A stretch of 50,350 nt of DNA from Phycisphaerales bacterium (GTDB lineage: Bacteria; Planctomycetota; Phycisphaerae; Sedimentisphaerales; Anaerobacaceae): positions 3,853,510-3,903,859 of the forward strand of contig CP070806.1 in assembly GCA_020343675.1 (NCBI GenBank), written 5' to 3'. How positions within the stretch are numbered: position 1 is the stretch's first letter; every line of letters starts with the position of its first letter. Below, one piece after another: positions 1,638 through 32,346 of this stretch. The notes below the pieces were generated by a model. That model made no database searches. It was not told the origin of the DNA and was given only the letters and a program-made list of their open reading frames with translations. Position numbers and translations under genes: made by a program.

Positions 1638-3080
1638 TCACTTTTGCCGGTACGGTGCCACGGGCGGCAGCAGCGGCCTGAGTCTGGCTACGATCTCCGG
1701 ATGCTGATCGGCGAGATCGTGTATCTCGGCCGGATCAGTGTTCAGGTCGTAAAGTTCCAGCGTGGGTGCGGTCTTGGCCTTTTTAGCTTTCCTCCCGCCG
1801 GCGCCGGTGGCGATGAGCTTGTACCGCCCGTCAAAGACAAGTGACCAGTTGCCCAGAGAGCTGATTGCATGGGTGCGGGGCAAGTCGCCTCGGCCCTCGA
1901 GGAAGGGACGCAGCGATTTGGAATCCATGTCTTTGGGGATCGCAATGCCGGCGAAGTCCAGGAATGTGGCCGTCAGGTCCAGCGTCTCGGTGGGCCGCTC
2001 ACACACGACACCCTCTCGAATTCCCGGCCCGGCCGCGACCAGCGGCACGCAGACCGAGGGATGATAGGGTTTGGACTTGCTGCTCATGCCGCGGTCGCCG
2101 AGCATTTCGCCGTGGTCCGAGCAATAAACAATCAGCGTGTTCTCAAGCTCGCCTCGTTTGTTCAGCTCCTGCTCGAACACGCCAAGCCATCGATCGATGT
2201 TGTGGATCATCGCGGCGTAATTGCGCCTCTTGGCGGACCAGTCATTCCCCTTGCCCGCTCGCGGCGGCGGAAATTTCTCATCCCTCCACTTCTTGTACAT
2301 ACTCTTGGTGACATCCATCGGCGGGTGCGGCCCATTGAAGTTGATCTGAATAAACCAGGGCGTTCCCCGGGGCACTGAGCGGATAAGATTCAGGCCGTTG
2401 TTGGCAATCCAGTTATCGCAGTACACATCCTCAGGGACCAGAGACGGCCCCGCATAGTCGTGGTCCAGCGTTTTGAAATTCTTCAGGTGAGCCTCCACAA
2501 GGCCCCGGCTTTCGAGAAAGGCAAAATAAGGCTCGGGTTTGTCACCGTCTTTGTAGGCATTCGCGCCGTCCATTTTGCCCGCGTTGTCGATGCCGTTGGT
2601 GAATCCCCAGGCGTCCAGCAGCGAGGGCTTGCCTTGCCGGTGATGCTTTCCGTCCAGGCTCCAGTTCTTGCCCGGCTTGTCCAGGTCGAACTTGCCGCAT
2701 CCGAGCACGCGGTAGCCCGCCTTGCGAAGCAGGCTGTACAACGTAGTCTGCTCCAGCGGATAAGGAATGCTGTTGCTCGCTACGCCGCAGTTCGCGTAGG
2801 CCTTGCCCGAGGCCAGGCACGCTCGCGCCGGCGCGCAGACGGGCGCCGGACTCAGCGCGTTGGCCAAATGCACGCCGCGATTTGCCAGCCGTTTGAGATT
2901 CGGCGTGATCTCCGGCAGCTCCGGATTCATGCTCGTCCAGTCGAACCGATGCTGGTCGGGGTAGAAGAACAGAATGTTCGGTCGGGAAACATGTCTGCCC
3001 CATGTGACCTGATCGGTCACCGACAGGCCCGCAACGGCAGCGCCGGAAGCCTTCAAGAACGCTCGTCGATTCATCTTCAT
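1638..3080 (-). CDS. Sulfatase (formylglycine type), Tat leader
   Basis: A 480-residue alkaline-phosphatase-superfamily sulfatase. The leader MKMNRRAFLK is twin-arginine type. The N-terminal domain has the metal-site aspartate in F-Y-P-D-Q (D42) and the modification motif C82-A-P84-A-R86, matching the C-x-P/A-x-R consensus whose cysteine becomes formylglycine. The segment DHGEMLGDRG later in the chain is the usual second metal/active-site region. It should hydrolyse sulfate esters, probably on carbohydrates, outside the cytoplasm. The start has GGAGA six bases upstream. It is the first gene of a two-gene minus-strand run with the enolase-superfamily gene, and is divergent from the PD40-amidohydrolase gene. 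Confidence 0.92.
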   Translation of the reverse strand: MKMNRRAFLKASGAAVAGLSVTDQVTWGRHVSRPNILFFYPDQHRFDWTSMNPELPEITPNLKRLANRGVHLANALSPAPVCAPARACLASGKAYANCGVASNSIPYPLEQTTLYSLLRKAGYRVLGCGKFDLDKPGKNWSLDGKHHRQGKPSLLDAWGFTNGIDNAGKMDGANAYKDGDKPEPYFAFLESRGLVEAHLKNFKTLDHDYAGPSLVPEDVYCDNWIANNGLNLIRSVPRGTPWFIQINFNGPHPPMDVTKSMYKKWRDEKFPPPRAGKGNDWSAKRRNYAAMIHNIDRWLGVFEQELNKRGELENTLIVYCSDHGEMLGDRGMSSKSKPYHPSVCVPLVAAGPGIREGVVCERPTETLDLTATFLDFAGIAIPKDMDSKSLRPFLEGRGDLPRTHAISSLGNWSLVFDGRYKLIATGAGGRKAKKAKTAPTLELYDLNTDPAEIHDLADQHPEIVARLRPLLPPVAPYRQK

Positions 3081-16003: not shown

Positions 16004-17500
16004 CTATTCTGGACGCCAGGGCTGTGGGCCGCCATCTTTCGGTTCCAGGAACTTCGCATCGACCTGCCTGTACCAGGCGTGCAGCTTGGCACGCATCTGC
16101 TCGACGCGCTGCGGGTATTGAGCTGCCAGGTCCTCACGTTCGCCGATATCCATCTGAAGGTCGTACAGATGGACCCGACCATCTTCGAATCGTTCGATAA
16201 GCTTCCAATCGCCCATGCGGATGGCGCCGCCCGGGAAGCCGCCTTGGTTGGAATAGTGCGGGTAGTGCCAGTAGATGGCGTCCCGGTCGATGTTTGTGGC
16301 ACCCTTGAGCAATGGGACCAGTGATGTGCCGTCCAAGTGCTGGCTCTTCTGCGGAGGCAGGCCCGCCATATCGAGAATGGTCGGGTAGAAATCCGTACTG
16401 ATTACGGGGACATCACATGCCGAACCGGGCTTGGTCACTCCGGGCCAGCGTATCAGGAAGGGCTCGCGGATGCCGCCTTCGTACAGCCAGCCCTTGCCCC
16501 CTCGCAGCGGCAGGTTGGATGTTGGCGATCCTTCGCTGGTGGAAAGCCCGCCGTTGTCGGACATCAGAATGACAGCCGTACTGTCGGCGATGCCCAGTTC
16601 CTCAAGCTTATCCAGCACGCGACCGATCTGCTCGTCCATGGCCTCGACCATAGCGCCGTAAACCGCGTGAGCCTGGCGGAGGCGTACCTGCCGCTCTTTC
16701 TTCGCAGGCCATACCTGCTCTTCCGGGCCGAACTCTCGCTCGTCGGTGTCCAATAGGTTCTGACGTTTGGCCTTGTACCTGGCGACCAGGTCCTCACGGC
16801 CCTGAAGCGGAGTGTGGACTGAGTAGAACGCCAGATAGAGCAGGAACGGTGTGTTTCTGCACTTGTCCAGAATCTTCATCGATGCATCAGTCAGGACCTT
16901 CGGCAGGTGCGAGCCTTTGGGATAATCGCCCAGCCGGGGGTTCTCGAACGGGGCAAAGTAACCGCCGCGAGGCGAACCGACCGACCAGCCGCCGACATTA
17001 ACATCGAACCCTTGATTCTCGGGCCAGTATTTATCCTCTGTGCCGAGATGCCATTTGCCGAGGAAGGCCGTTTTGTAGCCGTGTTCCTTCAGGGCCTCTG
17101 CCAGAGTAACTTCCTCCAGAGGCATCCAGTCATTGAGCGGTGCGCCGTTGAATCGCCCCGAGCGCTTGCCGCTGAACCAGTTGGTCGCATCGACCCGCGA
17201 GGGATACTTGCCCGTCATGATGCTGTATCGCGTGGGGCTGCACACCGGGTTGGCCGCATAGCCATTCGTGAAGTTCATGCCGGAACGAGCCAGGCGGTCG
17301 ATGTTCGGCGTCTCATAGAAACAGTTCGGATTATTCGCACCGATGTCCATCCATCCGAAATCATCGACGAGAAAGAACACGAAATTCATCGGCTTCCTGT
17401 CTGCAGCAGCGTGTATGGATGCGCGCGGGTGTAACAGCGTGGCCGCAAGGCCCCCGAGCAGGGTCTTCATGAATTCACGTCGCGTGGCATTCTCTCTCAT
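16004..17500 (-). CDS. Sulfatase (formylglycine type), Tat leader
   Basis: A 498-residue arylsulfatase-like enzyme. The leader MRENATRREFMKTLLGG is twin-arginine type. The metal pair D46-D47 (LVDDFGW) and the motif C87-S-P89-T-R91 are intact, so formylglycine conversion is expected. GKWHLG (the active-site Lys/His region) and MSDNGG (second metal region) are also present. It should remove sulfate from a carbohydrate or aryl substrate in the periplasm. GGAG eight bases upstream supports the start. It is a single gene between the plus-strand catabolic run and the divergent oxidoreductase pair at 17736. Confidence 0.93.
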   Translation of the reverse strand: MRENATRREFMKTLLGGLAATLLHPRASIHAAADRKPMNFVFFLVDDFGWMDIGANNPNCFYETPNIDRLARSGMNFTNGYAANPVCSPTRYSIMTGKYPSRVDATNWFSGKRSGRFNGAPLNDWMPLEEVTLAEALKEHGYKTAFLGKWHLGTEDKYWPENQGFDVNVGGWSVGSPRGGYFAPFENPRLGDYPKGSHLPKVLTDASMKILDKCRNTPFLLYLAFYSVHTPLQGREDLVARYKAKRQNLLDTDEREFGPEEQVWPAKKERQVRLRQAHAVYGAMVEAMDEQIGRVLDKLEELGIADSTAVILMSDNGGLSTSEGSPTSNLPLRGGKGWLYEGGIREPFLIRWPGVTKPGSACDVPVISTDFYPTILDMAGLPPQKSQHLDGTSLVPLLKGATNIDRDAIYWHYPHYSNQGGFPGGAIRMGDWKLIERFEDGRVHLYDLQMDIGEREDLAAQYPQRVEQMRAKLHAWYRQVDAKFLEPKDGGPQPWRPE

Positions 17501-25432: not shown

Positions 25433-26830
25433 GTGAAGACAGAACAGACCCGCCGAGATTTTCTGAGGGCCGCCGCTTTGTCGGCGGCGACGATAGGATG
25501 GCCGGGAATTTGCAGAGGCCGGCAACGTGAGAGACTTCCGAATTTTGTGATTATCTTCCTTGACGATTCGGGGTGGGCGGATTTCCACCCGTTCGCTAAT
25601 CCTTCTTACCGGACGCCCAATGTCGAGCAGCTCGCCGGAGAGGGCTGCCGCTTCCATCAGTTCTACGTACCGCAAGCGGTTTGTTCGGCCTCGCGATCAG
25701 CGCTGCTGTCCGGCTGCTACCCGGGCAGGACCAAGGTCTTCGGCGCCCACGGTCCGAACGCCCGGGGACTCGATCCGAAGTATGCCACAATCGGGCAGGT
25801 TCTGAAGGCACGCGGCTACACCACGGCGGTGTTCGGCAAGTGGCACATCGGCGACCAACCCGACACCCGGCCGCTGGCGCGCGGTTTCGACGAGTCGTGC
25901 GGGCTGATGTACTCCAACGACATGTGGGAGTTCCACCCGGAGAACCCGACACGCTGGGGTAAGTACCCGCTTCAGTTCTGGGACAACGGCAGGGTCACCA
26001 TCGATCGCGTGACCAAAGAACACCAGCCGATGCTCACGACCTGGTACACAGAGCACGCTGTCGATTTCATCAGCCGGAACAAAGACAAGCCGTTCTTCCT
26101 CTACGTCCCGCATTCAATGCCGCACGTGCCGCTGTTTTGCAGCGAGAAGTTCAAAGGCAAATCCGGCACGGGCCTCTATGGCGACGTGATGATGGAGATC
26201 GACTTCTCGGTCGGCGAGATTACCAAGGCGCTGAGGGCCAATGGCCTTGAGGACAATACGCTGGTACTCTTTACCTCGGACAACGGGCCCTGGATTTCCT
26301 ACGGCAACCACGCCGGTAAGACGCCTTACCGCGAGGCCAAGGGAACCGGCTTCGACGGCGGCACTCGCAGCGCATGCATTATGAAGTTCCCGGGAAGAAT
26401 CAAGCCGGGCACGATCTCACAGCGGGCCTTCTGCACGCTCGATGTCCTTCCGACGCTGGCTCATTTGGCGGGCGCGGAGCTGCCGGAGAACCCGATTGAT
26501 GGCAGGAACGTCTGGGACCTGATTGTCGGCAAGCCCGGCGCGAAGAACCCGCACGCATATTATCCCTTCTCCACGGGCAGGAATTTCGAGGGTGTCATTA
26601 GCGGCGACGGGCGCTGGAAGCTGCACCTTCCGCACGGCTACCGAACGCTCGTCGAGGCCGGCAAAGACGGCATGCCGGGTACGTATAGACAGGACAAAAT
26701 CGGCCTGTCGCTGTTTGATATGCAAAACGATCCGTACGAAACCACGAACGTGCTTGAGAAGTATCCGGATGTCACCAAACGCCTGGCAGCATACGCCGAA
26801 CAGCACAGGCAGAGATTCTACGCGCAGTAA
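25433..26830 (+). CDS. Sulfatase (formylglycine type), Tat leader, GTG start
   Basis: The start is GTG 25433, with AAAGGAG seven bases upstream. The same frame is open back to 25040, but that part overlaps the preceding gene and lacks family sequence. The 465-residue protein has a Tat leader (TRRDFLRAAALSAAT), metal aspartates D44-D45 (FLDDSGW) and the motif C84-S-A86-S-R88, which fits C-x-P/A-x-R. GKWHIG and TSDNGP are also present. It should hydrolyse sulfate esters in the periplasm. It follows the esterase-DUF1080 gene and probably shares its transcript, suggesting a substrate carrying both acyl and sulfate groups. Confidence 0.92.
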   Translation: MKTEQTRRDFLRAAALSAATIGWPGICRGRQRERLPNFVIIFLDDSGWADFHPFANPSYRTPNVEQLAGEGCRFHQFYVPQAVCSASRSALLSGCYPGRTKVFGAHGPNARGLDPKYATIGQVLKARGYTTAVFGKWHIGDQPDTRPLARGFDESCGLMYSNDMWEFHPENPTRWGKYPLQFWDNGRVTIDRVTKEHQPMLTTWYTEHAVDFISRNKDKPFFLYVPHSMPHVPLFCSEKFKGKSGTGLYGDVMMEIDFSVGEITKALRANGLEDNTLVLFTSDNGPWISYGNHAGKTPYREAKGTGFDGGTRSACIMKFPGRIKPGTISQRAFCTLDVLPTLAHLAGAELPENPIDGRNVWDLIVGKPGAKNPHAYYPFSTGRNFEGVISGDGRWKLHLPHGYRTLVEAGKDGMPGTYRQDKIGLSLFDMQNDPYETTNVLEKYPDVTKRLAAYAEQHRQRFYAQ

Positions 26831-28243
26831 CTACTTTTCGACGGCCACTGGGATGGGAATATCCTGTCGCAGGAATTGACACGTCCCGCCCGCATCTTCG
26901 CAAACGTAGTATAGAGCGTAGGCAGCAAGGTGTGATGTGCCGCCTGTATCCGCAGGCGCCTGGACTTCGAACTCGAGGCGCCGGGGCTCTGAAGTCTCCG
27001 GTTCCCGGCCCTGGGGGGCGGCGAGCAGTTGGGGCTGCACCTTCCAGCCGGCAGGTGCATCGATCCAAAGCCTTAACGGCTCAGCCTCATTGTTCCAATG
27101 GGCCTTGCGCTGCTCGTTCGGACGCAGTGTCACGTGGACCCGCGCAATCTCCCCCAGCTTGACCTGCGGCGGGACGACCGTCACTTCGGTTAGTATCAGG
27201 CTTTGCGTATCGCGGAAAATCCGCCCTTCGGGGTCCGGCGACTTCAACTTGCCTTGTTCGGTATCGAAATTTCGGTCCGGAGCTGCGAGCTCAGAGCCCG
27301 TGGGCAAGACCTCCAGTTTGACAGGTTCCTCACCGCGTTCGGTGATGTCGAGAGCGGCGGCTTGCACCCAATCGTAAAACGGGTAGGGCTTGGTCATGCG
27401 CGGGCCGTACTGCTCGATGCGCCGGCGCCAAATGTACTGGTTCGGCTCGATCCGCCGGGCTCGGGTCCAGCAGTCCACAGCCTTCTGGAAGTCGGCCGGT
27501 TTTCGCTGCGAAGACTCATACCGCATGCGATAACAGACGCCGAGGCGGAAATGCGCGTCACCGTCGTCCGATTTGACCTTGACGGCCTGCGTGTAAGCGT
27601 CTATAGCCTCGTCAATGCGCGCCGGTCCTGCCCAGAGCACCAGAGCGTCGCCCAGTTCTCGCCATGCGTCGGATGATGGGGCTTGCACGGCGCGGCGGCG
27701 CAAGGCGGCCAGATCCGGCTGAGTGGCCTCCTGTACTCTGGCCGCCGATTCGATGCCTTCGGTCGCGAAAGACTTGTTCAGGAACTCTTGCTCGAACGTT
27801 TCGGCCTTCGGCCGGAGGCTGCGCACAATACCGTGCTCATCAATAGCCACCTCAATCGGCACGCCCCTGACCTGCATGACGTTGATTGGATCTTGCAGGA
27901 TGGGCCAATCCAGCCGCTGCCACTGCGCAAACAGTCTCGAGCGCTGGCGATGCTGCTCCTGTGCGACTGCGAGCACAACAAGCCTGCCCTCTTGGACGTA
28001 CTGCTGCATTTTTGCATTCCAGGCCGGCACGGCCTGGCGGCAGCCCCTTCACCACGAGGCGAAGTGGACGAGCAGCACTTTTCGGCCGCGAAACTGCGAC
28101 AGCGATATGGGCGTCCCGTCCATGATGCTGGGCAACGTAAAGTCAGGGTGAGGTTCACCTATGCGGGGCGAGTAGATTGCGCCCGATGCGGCGACAGAAC
28201 AAAAACAGCCGCAAGTCAGAGTCAACAAATTCAGGTTTCGCAT
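26831..28243 (-). CDS. Candidate selenoprotein: thioredoxin-like (UxxC) - TPR - DsbD-alpha-like protein
   Basis: The frame from ATG 28243 reads a signal peptide (NLLTLTCGCFCSVAASGA) and a redoxin N-terminus (RGRKVLLVHFASW). It then meets a single UGA (28051-28049) and continues R-G-C-R-Q-A to a stop at 26833-26831. The UGA occupies the first cysteine of the thioredoxin CxxC, so with selenocysteine the product is 470 residues with U65-R-G-C68. The cis-proline region G-V-P139 and V-A-I-D-E-H-G follow, confirming the fold. TPR-like helices cover ~190-270. Residues ~350-470 resemble the DsbD alpha domain, with C448-x6-C455. A bSECIS-like hairpin directly follows the UGA. It is probably a periplasmic thiol oxidoreductase. 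It lies 27 bases downstream of the NHL-repeat gene in the same direction. The alternative, a nonsense-mutated pseudogene, is less likely because the rest of the frame is intact and the UGA position is exact. Confidence 0.8.
28019..28051 (-). promoter_or_regulatory. Candidate bacterial SECIS element with UGA codon
   Basis: On the minus strand the UGA (28051-28049) is followed by 11 bases, then CCAGGCC (28037-28031), loop GUGCC (28030-28026) and GGCCTGG (28025-28019). The 7-bp stem is perfect, the 5-base loop starts with G, and the loop begins 18 bases after the UGA. Known bacterial SECIS models ask for a small apical loop with G in its first two bases, about 16-37 bases from the UGA. An outer CUGC/GCAG pairing may extend the stem. 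It would recruit SelB to recode the UGA as selenocysteine. Confidence 0.72.
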
Positions 28244-28270: not shown

Positions 28271-29266
28271 CTATGGTTGTAGCAGGAATTTCTGCGCCCG
28301 CGAGCCCTGGATGTCGCCAAGGTAAAGATTGCCCTTCGTATCCAGGGCGATGCCGTGGACCCAGTCGAGTTCCCCCAGCTTGCCCGGAGGGACCGTTGTT
28401 TTTGGCAGCGGCACGCGCAGGAGAACCTCGCCCTTCAGATTCAACTTCATAAGGAGCTGGTCCGCCGGCGGGGTAACGAGCCACTCATCTGCTCCCTCTT
28501 TCCTCACGCGCGAAGAACCACAAACCCAAAGCTCCCGATCCTTCGTTATCCAAAGGCCCCACGGTGTCATCAGGTCCGCCCAAACCGCGAGCAGCTTGCC
28601 GCTGCTATCGAAGACCTGGATGCGGGCGTTTTCGCGATCGGCGACGTAGAGCCGCCCTTGGGAATCGGCTACGATCGAGTGCGGCAGGGCAAACTGTCCC
28701 GGCCCATCGCCTTCGGTGCCCCACTCGTCCACGTACCTGCCGTTCGCGTCGAAATGCACGATGCGTCTGTTGCCATACCCGTCGCTGACGAAGATATCAC
28801 CGCTCGGCAGCACGGCCATATCCGTTGGCCTGTCGAAGCGTCTCTGGTCGGCCCCAGCGTGGCCCGGCTCGCCAAGCGTAAGCAGCAGTTCGCCTTCGGA
28901 GCTGTACTTTCGCACCGTGTGACTTTCGATGTTTGCCGTCCAGACGTTGCCGGCCGGATCGATCCTGATGAAGTGCGCGCCGGCGAAATCCTCCATGTCC
29001 CAGGCACGGACGAATCTTCCATCAGTTCGGTAAACCTGCACGGCCGGCTGGCTGCGGGTGAAGATATGGACCTGATCCTGAGCATCAATTGTGATACCGG
29101 GCATTTGGGCCCAGGTGAAGTGGTCCGGTTTTTGAGGCCACGTGACATCGACAACGCAATGGATTCCGCCACTGTCCGCCCGTTCTGTGGGCGAGCACGC
29201 GCACCCATGACATAGCAGGGTCGAGAGCACCATTGCGACGGCAAGAAGATAAGGGGTCGAACGCAT
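28271..29266 (-). CDS. NHL-repeat (six-bladed propeller) secreted protein
   Basis: ATG 29266 has AAGGAG eight bases upstream; the frame extends to 29365 but the extra part is repeat-derived and lacks a ribosome site. The 331-residue product has a signal peptide (YLLAVAMVLSTLL) followed by C-H-G-C-A-C, possibly a lipid-attachment site although the -3 residue is not the usual Leu. NHL blades are visible as G-Q-F-A-L-P-H-S-I-V, G-R-L-Y-V-A-D-R-E-N and G-D-I-F-V-S-D-G-Y-G-N-R-R-I. NHL propellers bind proteins or small ligands. Pairing with the thioredoxin-TPR gene immediately downstream suggests a shared extracytoplasmic redox or binding function. Confidence 0.85.
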   Translation of the reverse strand: MRSTPYLLAVAMVLSTLLCHGCACSPTERADSGGIHCVVDVTWPQKPDHFTWAQMPGITIDAQDQVHIFTRSQPAVQVYRTDGRFVRAWDMEDFAGAHFIRIDPAGNVWTANIESHTVRKYSSEGELLLTLGEPGHAGADQRRFDRPTDMAVLPSGDIFVSDGYGNRRIVHFDANGRYVDEWGTEGDGPGQFALPHSIVADSQGRLYVADRENARIQVFDSSGKLLAVWADLMTPWGLWITKDRELWVCGSSRVRKEGADEWLVTPPADQLLMKLNLKGEVLLRVPLPKTTVPPGKLGELDWVHGIALDTKGNLYLGDIQGSRAQKFLLQP

Positions 29267-30699: not shown

Positions 30700-32346
30700 T
30701 TAGGGTTTAGGCGGGACATCCCTGGACCAGTTGTATTCGACGCGATCGGGTGGAAATATCCTCGCCACTAAACGTCCACGCAGCTCCTGGCAGACCTTGC
30801 GATAATTCCGGTCATGTCCGAGGTTGTATCGCTCAGCAGGGTCGTTCTTTCGGTCGAAGAGGCTGATGTCAAGATCCGTCAGCGGACTCTTCGCGGCCCA
30901 GTCCATCTCTTCGCTTCTGAGCCGTCGTCCGCTTCGCGGGTCGGGAGAAACCTGCATCTCGAATGACCAGTGTTCTGTCCGAAGCATGGCACGGCGCCCG
31001 TATGTGAGCTTCTCACTGATTGCTTCAGTGCGAGGGGCCAAGCGGCCCTGAGCGGTTACGGCCAGGTCCCGGCCCTCCAGATGCCCGGGCAGCTTCACCC
31101 CGGCGGCATTTAGGAACGTCGGCGCCAGATCGATAAGCTCGACAAAATCATCGCAGACCCTCCCTCGCGGCAGGCGTCCGTCCGAAGAAGCGGCGATCAG
31201 CGGCACGTGCACGGACACGTCGTAAAACGTGAACTTCTCCTGCATCCCGTGCTCGCCAACCTTGCACCCGTGGTCGGGATTGAACACCATCAGCCAGGGA
31301 CGATCACCGCAAGACGCTTTGAAAGCCCTGATGACCCGGCCGATTTCGCTGTCCACGTAACTTGCCAGGCCGTAGTAGTCCGCTCGCATCTTGCGGATCT
31401 CCGCCTCTTTCATGCCATGGACGCGCAGGTTCTCGTAGGCGGTTCTTGTCTGCCGGCCGAAAGACTCGATCTCAGCTTGCGTTACGCGCGGAAACGGAAT
31501 CGACGCTGGGTCGTAGGCTCTATTAAATGGAGCGGGCGGAAGGACCGGCGTGTGCGGATAGATGTACGAGACACGCAGGCAGATGGGCCGGTCGTTGAAC
31601 GTATTGGACTGAAGATGCTCAATCGCCATGTTTGACAGATGAGCGGTCAGCGTCTGGTCGGCCGAGACGGGATTCGTTCCGCCGATGATCAGTTTCTTTT
31701 CGGTCAGGTACCGCCTGAGGATGCCAAGCTCGGACTCGCGTTCGGCGCCTTTGACCAACTCCGAAGGTCTGGCCTCCTGAATGTTGGCCCGGCCCCAGGA
31801 GTGAAAATCCTTGTCTGCAAAGGCATTAAGGACGTTGTACCACCTGCCGTCAGGCGTGTAAGGCCGGTCTTTCGAGGCCAGCCGGTAGTGGTGCTCCTTG
31901 CCGAAGCTGGCCAGCTCATAGCCGCTGCGGTGCAGCAGCTCGGTGAAGAAGGGCACCGAGAATTCCGTATTCGGATGGGAGTATTCGAATCCATAGACAC
32001 CCGTGTGGTGCGGATACCGGCCCGTGAGCATTGAGACACGAGAGCCCACGCACAGCGGGGCCTGACAATATGCCTGGCGGAACAACACTCCTTCGGCGGC
32101 CAGGGCATCGAGATTGGGCGAGCGGACCCAGTCGTGCCGGCCGTAGGCGCGGATCGTGTCCCAGCGGTGCTCGTCGGTCATGATCCAGAGAATGTTCGGG
32201 CGTTCCCTGCTTGCGGCTTGACCGTAATCGGCGGCGCCGCCCAGCAGCACTGCGCCCGCACTGCCGATGCGTTGGAGGAACGCGCGTCTGGAAATACCGT
32301 GGGGCGACTCTTTCATTTGCTTTTGCTCTTGTGGTCTGGACGTCAT
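30700..32346 (-). CDS. Sulfatase family protein with atypical CVGSR motif
   Basis: A ~548-residue alkaline-phosphatase-superfamily protein with a leader (ISRRAFLQRIGSAGAVLLGGAA). The start could be GTG 32352, ATG 32346 or ATG 32316; none has a strong ribosome site. The metal aspartate lies in M-T-D-E-H-R and a second metal region in N-P-D-H-G. Counting from GTG 32352, the modification site reads C101-V-G103-S-R105, with Gly where formylglycine-generating enzyme normally needs Pro or Ala. It may still be converted by another route, be inactive as a sulfatase, or act as a phosphodiesterase-like relative. It heads the minus-strand unit that continues to the selenoprotein candidate. Confidence 0.85.
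   Translation of the reverse strand: MTSRPQEQKQMKESPHGISRRAFLQRIGSAGAVLLGGAADYGQAASRERPNILWIMTDEHRWDTIRAYGRHDWVRSPNLDALAAEGVLFRQAYCQAPLCVGSRVSMLTGRYPHHTGVYGFEYSHPNTEFSVPFFTELLHRSGYELASFGKEHHYRLASKDRPYTPDGRWYNVLNAFADKDFHSWGRANIQEARPSELVKGAERESELGILRRYLTEKKLIIGGTNPVSADQTLTAHLSNMAIEHLQSNTFNDRPICLRVSYIYPHTPVLPPAPFNRAYDPASIPFPRVTQAEIESFGRQTRTAYENLRVHGMKEAEIRKMRADYYGLASYVDSEIGRVIRAFKASCGDRPWLMVFNPDHGCKVGEHGMQEKFTFYDVSVHVPLIAASSDGRLPRGRVCDDFVELIDLAPTFLNAAGVKLPGHLEGRDLAVTAQGRLAPRTEAISEKLTYGRRAMLRTEHWSFEMQVSPDPRSGRRLRSEEMDWAAKSPLTDLDISLFDRKNDPAERYNLGHDRNYRKVCQELRGRLVARIFPPDRVEYNWSRDVPPKP

Follow-up and report, generated by a model that had tools for sequence, protein, structure and literature searches.

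An in-frame UGA followed by a putative SECIS hairpin in a redoxin-domain gene of a Phycisphaerales bacterium, and two hairpin positions within one UxxC protein family

The window analysed here is a stretch of 50,350 nucleotides from a Phycisphaerales bacterium (assembly GCA_020343675.1, contig CP070806.1, positions 3,853,510 to 3,903,859 of the forward strand), and all positions below are counted from its first letter. Besides four sulfatase genes it holds several GFO/IDH/MocA oxidoreductases and 3-keto-disaccharide hydrolase domains, and is a polysaccharide-degradation region. On its minus strand, directly downstream of a gene for an NHL-repeat beta-propeller protein, lies a gene whose reading frame is interrupted by a UGA codon. 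No conserved gene neighbourhood was found around this gene among 80 relatives, the largest neighbour cluster comprising five of the 80 loci. The features of the locus are as follows.

1638-3080, 16004-17500, 25445-26830 and 30700-32325: four sulfatase genes.
28271-29266, minus strand: NHL-repeat beta-propeller protein, directly upstream of the putative selenoprotein gene and on the same strand.
26831-28243, minus strand: putative selenoprotein gene, with ATG at 28243-28241, an in-frame UGA and a TAG stop ending at 26831 (470 residues with readthrough).
27881-28162, minus strand: AhpC-TSA/Redoxin (ResA/TlpA-like) domain with a UxxC site (Pfam 2.7e-13; ResA-like structures at Z 14-15).
28049-28051, minus strand: UGA codon, residue 65 from the ATG, in the motif W-U-R-G-C (TGA in 95 of 103 distinct loci).
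28019-28037, minus strand: hairpin H1, the SECIS candidate (from sequence, folding, pairing counts and a codon test).
28016-28030, minus strand: place of hairpin H2, broken in the window (GUGCC/GGAAU); fully paired in 84 of 84 sequences outside the window's family and in 0 of 10 within it.
27338-27712, minus strand: TPR-like helical region (weak Pfam TPR matches; helices at residues 178-302 of the model).
26834-27196, minus strand: C-terminal beta-sandwich with a conserved Cys pair, C448 and C455 (model pLDDT 94.8).

Homologues of the encoded protein align along its full 470-residue length, on both sides of the UGA. The N-terminus is predicted to carry a probable signal peptide and the product is probably secreted. 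The Pfam AhpC-TSA/Redoxin scores lie above the gathering thresholds (50.4 versus 26 bits and 40 versus 26.6 bits), and the active-site stretch of this domain reads F-A-S-W-U-R-G-C-R. A fold search showed the thioredoxin part to resemble ResA-type oxidoreductases, with Z reaching 15.1 across about 130 residues. The thioredoxin-like fold is thus shared with the ResA/TlpA/DsbE oxidoreductases (Z about 14-15 over about 130 residues), from which the protein differs in having UGA, as selenocysteine (Sec), in place of the first active-site Cys, and in possessing the TPR region and the beta-sandwich. Fold and motif make the role of a thiol-disulfide (selenosulfide) reductase working outside the cytoplasm the likeliest one.

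The C-terminal Cys pair (codons 448 and 455, at 26879-26902 on the minus strand) forms a CxxxxxxC motif within YYVCEDAGGTC; among homologues the first Cys is invariant and the second is kept in at least 90%. A link between the Sec site and this pair is only a lead. The motif is reminiscent of the N-terminal active site of DsbD, which suggested a DsbD-like C-terminal domain. PF11412 gave weak matches in four of 42 members when E values as high as 10 were admitted (the best being 0.032), and no solved nDsbD fold was found among the 50 rows listed by either of two fold searches, in which the matches listed for this domain are general beta-sandwich domains. With weak PF11412 matches and no clear fold match, a DsbD-like identity remains tentative and was set aside.

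No NCBIfam model matched the window's protein above its curated cut-off. The nearest curated family is NF041054 (ResA-like WAxxUGC motif-containing protein), which matched residues 33-276 at 62.7 bits against a cut-off of 300 and was also matched by all 44 of the 44 family members scanned. Judged by its name, NF041054 is a UGC-motif family too; however, the W-U-x-G-C motif described here is one residue longer between U and GC (the NF041054 motif being taken from the name only), and the match leaves the C-terminal domain uncovered. The available part of PMC13188914 contains a table listing a 'Redoxin family protein' (UxxC) and a 'Thiol-disulfide isomerase-like protein' (UxxC), which, compared by description only, share with the window's protein the UxxC site and a redoxin/thioredoxin-like domain. 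The family could already be included under these two general names.

The UGA is conserved well beyond the window. Within the order, the protein was identified in 10 of 161 genomes and each of its 11 matches contained one TGA. The class sample yielded matches in 31 of 397 genomes and the phylum sample in 43 of 392; all 43 of the latter have a match with one TGA in its N-terminal part (TGAs being counted per match and not by individual position), while six TGA-less matches span C-terminal parts only. A scan of a collection holding one genome per species (84,980 species), using two peptide patterns that avoid the Sec site, found 217 relatives, and TGA occupies the aligned codon in 80 of 80 among the best 80 of the 217, which were kept. 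By record title these relatives belong to Planctomycetota, Acidobacteria, Gemmatimonadetes, Verrucomicrobia, Poribacteria, Armatimonadaceae and others; the records are mostly metagenome bins, so individual phylum labels may be wrong. A set of 122 loci was reduced to 103 that are distinct by their 300-nt context, and TGA was present at the site in 95 of these. The other eight (L047-L049, L052-L055 and L058) have CAC, CAC, CAT, GAT, TCA, TCG, TCG and TGC, encoding His, Asp, Ser or Cys. Among the 103 distinct loci there was no CxxC homologue. As none of the eight non-UGA relatives has an intact CxxC, they may be non-redox paralogues; most of them are on long branches of the protein tree. Recoding of the UGA in this gene is strongly supported.

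Read 5' to 3' on the minus strand from 28051 to 28019, the UGA and the bases after it are TGA AGGGGCTGCCG CCAGGCC GTGCC GGCCTGG. The initial annotation had described here a perfect 7-bp stem with a 5-base loop starting with G, at distances of 11 and 18 bases from the UGA, and the sequence agrees in every detail, coordinates included. The arms of H1 (28037-28031 and 28025-28019) form seven of seven Watson-Crick pairs, the loop GTGCC (GUGCC in RNA) occupies 28030-28026, and the gaps from the UGA to the stem and to the loop are 11 nt and 18 nt, respectively. Folding of about 60 bases after the UGA had been proposed as a check. The predicted fold of 61 nt from the UGA has H1 as its core, with one extra G-C pair inside the loop (8 bp and a UGC triloop). 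The total folding energy of these 61 nt is unremarkable (z -1.70; 15 of 200 shuffles equally stable). The two strands of the window together contain 1583 TGA triplets, and comparable hairpins (at least seven Watson-Crick pairs, a loop of 3-9 nt, G in the first two loop positions and a spacing of 16-37 nt) follow seven of them, or about 0.4% per TGA. No Rfam model matched at gathering score anywhere in the window. The hairpin had also been put forward as independent support for recoding; it is real and suggestive, but taken alone it is weak evidence, and conservation carries the case.

H1 (nt 12-18 after the UGA paired with nt 24-30) characterizes the window's own family, a single clade of 11 loci of which 10 are distinct over the hairpin stretch. 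There, 97% of cells are paired and eight of the 10 distinct sequences are fully paired; when the partner is slid by one to three columns, pairing falls to at most 60%. Locus L020 carries a double compensatory change (G-C to A-U) and L024 the intermediate G-U. Covariation of the stem among UGA homologues, which the initial annotation had proposed to check, is thus seen as one double change in a paired stem, but alone it is not significant across the 10 distinct sequences (103 of 500 shuffles as good). The expectation that the stem itself would be conserved in UGA homologues held in the window's family but not elsewhere. Outside it, H1 is fully paired in none of the 84 distinct UGA sequences (three of them, L031, L043 and L046, have six of seven H1 pairs), and a second hairpin, H2, lies five bases downstream in all 84, these three included. 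The hairpin census covered 94 of the 95 TGA loci, one lying too near the end of its locus.

H2 pairs nt 19-23 with nt 29-33 after the UGA (GUGCC/GGCAC), placing its loop 23 nt from the UGA. Its loops include CGGGU, CGUGU, GGUCU and AGGUU, with a G in the first two positions in 83 of the 84 sequences. The outer pair varies among G-C, C-G, G-U, U-G and A-U, requiring seven changes on the tree, and another pair is changed from G-C to A-U in L150. In all, 10 cells are changed on both sides, a count reached by none of 1000 shuffles (the shuffle ignores relatedness). The bare 5-bp H2 has a free energy of -4.0 to -6.8 kcal/mol, and the 40-nt region lies below -7.5 in 84 of 84 sequences. H2 is fully paired in none of the 10 distinct sequences of the window's family and in two of the eight non-UGA loci.

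Limits for bacterial SECIS elements (bSECIS) are given in the available part of PMC13188914: an apical loop of 3-9 nt, an upper stem of 4-16 bp, a G at one or both of the first two loop positions, 16-37 nt from the UGA to the loop, and a free energy of at most -7.5 kcal/mol. H1 lies within the stem and loop limits both as 7 bp with a 5-nt loop and as the 8 bp with a 3-nt loop of the predicted fold. The required G is present in GUGCC as it is in the triloop UGC, the spacings of H1 (18 nt) and H2 (23 nt) are both within range, and H1 alone has a free energy of -13.3 kcal/mol. Structure is conserved among the UGA homologues as well, with H1 in the window's family and H2 in all others, not as one common stem. 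The match to bacterial SECIS geometry proposed at the outset therefore extends to every limit in this part of the source that could be tested. H1 stands directly after an in-frame UGA, is stable and has G first in its loop, and no difference from bacterial SECIS elements appeared among the tested features; this protein family has two alternative positions, at 18 nt (H1) and 23 nt (H2). Since H1 lies within all testable limits, the hairpin at 28037-28019 is very probably the bacterial SECIS element of a selenoprotein gene. The bacterial SECIS is an element type already known, and H1 is a further instance of it. H1 would bind SelB carrying Sec-tRNA(Sec), and the SelB-bound hairpin would in turn lead the ribosome to incorporate selenocysteine at this UGA (28051-28049).

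It is unlikely that the gene is a real selenoprotein gene in which SelB reads a structure other than H1 as drawn, such as the UGC triloop on the 8-bp stem or a degenerate H2. The minimum-energy fold does contain the extra G-C pair and the triloop, but this form is the same hairpin and also has a G within its first two loop positions. Related genes use H2 and covariation of H1 falls short of significance by itself; against this, each of the 10 distinct own-family sequences has a disrupted H2, and the pairing of H1 is kept there through codon choice.

That role of codon choice was assessed from pairing, because whole-region folding energy proved too weak a measure. A test of folding energy against synonymous recodings fell below 0.05 for four of 31 TGA loci and separated loci poorly (mean z of -0.61 for TGA and -0.25 for non-TGA loci); pair counts and a codon-based pairing test were therefore used. 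The SECIS signal resides in the pairs and not in overall stability. When synonymous codons are sampled according to the usage of the gene concerned, leaving the protein unchanged, full H1 pairing is expected in 0.8 of 11 own-family rows (7% of draws) and is observed in nine. H2 is fully paired in 83 of 83 rows versus 32.1 expected (39% of draws), one of the 84 rows outside the family having been dropped for a stop in its first 12 codons. Among the non-UGA rows, two of eight have H2 versus 0.9 expected. The rows of this test are related and not independent draws, but the H2 set is diverse. For the Val residue encoded in the H2 arm, 73 of 74 sequences use GTG (28.4 expected), the single GTA facing a U, and most codons near it vary more freely. 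Codon choice keeps both H1 and H2 beyond the demands of the protein. It is true that conserved residues (V, P, W) fix part of both stems, that such a hairpin follows about 0.4% of the window's TGAs and that relatedness makes the row counts non-independent; yet, given how much less often recoded genes are fully paired than the real ones and that just two of eight non-UGA relatives keep H2, it is very unlikely that the hairpins play no part in decoding and simply follow from protein conservation and GC-rich codons.

In a mechanical list of the window's long non-overlapping open reading frames, 18 of 35 end in TGA, so UGA is an ordinary stop here; that the UGA in this gene is such a stop, a nonsense mutation or a sequencing error, the remainder starting at GTG 28030, is nevertheless extremely improbable, as 95 of 103 distinct loci share the UGA at this codon and homology extends to both sides of it.

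The genome to which the window belongs (5.06 Mb, 82% complete; N runs occur elsewhere, none in the window) encodes complete selA (550 bits) and selD (364.6 bits) genes. Directly after selA lie the first ~180 aa of selB, followed by an N run. In this region (L017, G000:C1:1728000-1744000), N runs were observed inside several genes including selB, with unlike gene halves on either side. Because N runs fall within genes of this assembly, absences from it mean little. The tRNA-Sec was not found in the 82% complete assembly with the Rfam model, an IUPAC pattern or a relative's tRNA as DNA query, nor by ARAGORN on 16 kb around selA. This absence would suit a reading of the UGA as Trp, Cys or Gly through a changed code or a suppressor tRNA, which is scarcely credible given that UGA commonly serves as a stop in the window, that both selA and selD are complete and that the UGA replaces the first active-site Cys of a thioredoxin motif.

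Among the 37 genomes with a protein match, a tRNA-Sec scoring above the Rfam cut-off was identified in 32, including 22 of 22 of good quality; the five without it are 81-84% complete. Within the order it is present in 41 of 161 genomes, namely eight of the 10 with the gene versus 33 of the 151 without (p 0.0003). It also occurs in seven of seven genomes having non-UGA relatives only, so its presence is not specific. In three of eight tRNA-Sec regions (G252, G420 and G460; L185, L186 and L187), selB, selA, tRNA-Sec and the gene lie within about 6-7 kb; these three genomes belong to different families, and the arrangement is on a single strand in two of them. In the five tRNA-Sec regions from the window's own family, no selA, selB or selenoprotein gene was found within the stretch examined around the tRNA-Sec.

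The history of the element was traced on a protein tree of 102 rows, from which the residues under the hairpins were removed and L112 was left out; the tree was built by a quick method with no bootstrap. All 11 H1 rows fall into a single clade (SH-aLRT 100) nested among H2 rows, and three changes explain all hairpin and codon states. The nearest rows outside this clade (L099, L105 and the group with L102 and L116) retain H2, and L102 and L116 already possess five of the seven H1 pairs. H2 is most likely the ancestral form and H1 the derived one. A single shift, by five bases in the direction of the UGA, would have taken place in the ancestor of the window's family, with loss of the earlier stem GUGCC/GGCAC, its 5' arm GUGCC becoming the new loop. 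In most H1 rows the His codon before GUGCC is now Ala (GCC), and the His codon that closes H2 is now Asn. The SECIS thus seems to have moved once, accompanied by amino-acid replacements.

The fuller reading is that of a Sec family that is widespread and for which no Cys form was detected, its SECIS having changed place a single time, by five nucleotides, as the 5' arm of the old stem turned into the new loop, with His-to-Ala and His-to-Asn replacements that suited the RNA; we hold the chances for and against it to be evenly balanced. Were it true, an RNA recoding signal would have driven amino-acid replacements beside an active site. Co-evolution of element and factor may have occurred if SelB in this family has its own way of reading loop and spacing. 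In the accessible text of the literature compared (PMC13188914, PMC4807772, PMC1088965, PMC2398784, PMC12013277, PMC1794560 and PMC9312934), no description was found of a single five-base SECIS relocation in one clade or of this protein architecture.

These results point to a broadly distributed UxxC selenoprotein family with no curated NCBIfam model above cut-off; standard annotation would truncate such genes at the UGA. Searches based on Cys/Sec pairs would miss the family if it is truly without a Cys form, a limit that the deep-Sep authors themselves name in the available part of PMC12013277. The two hairpin positions within one protein family amount to a natural experiment on what SelB needs in spacing, loop and stem, and on how an RNA signal in a coding region can shift while the protein is retained. 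Finally, the UGA-bearing locus L112 also carries an in-frame TAG at the fifth codon after the UGA, where its kin have CAG, and may represent an error, a dying gene or something else.
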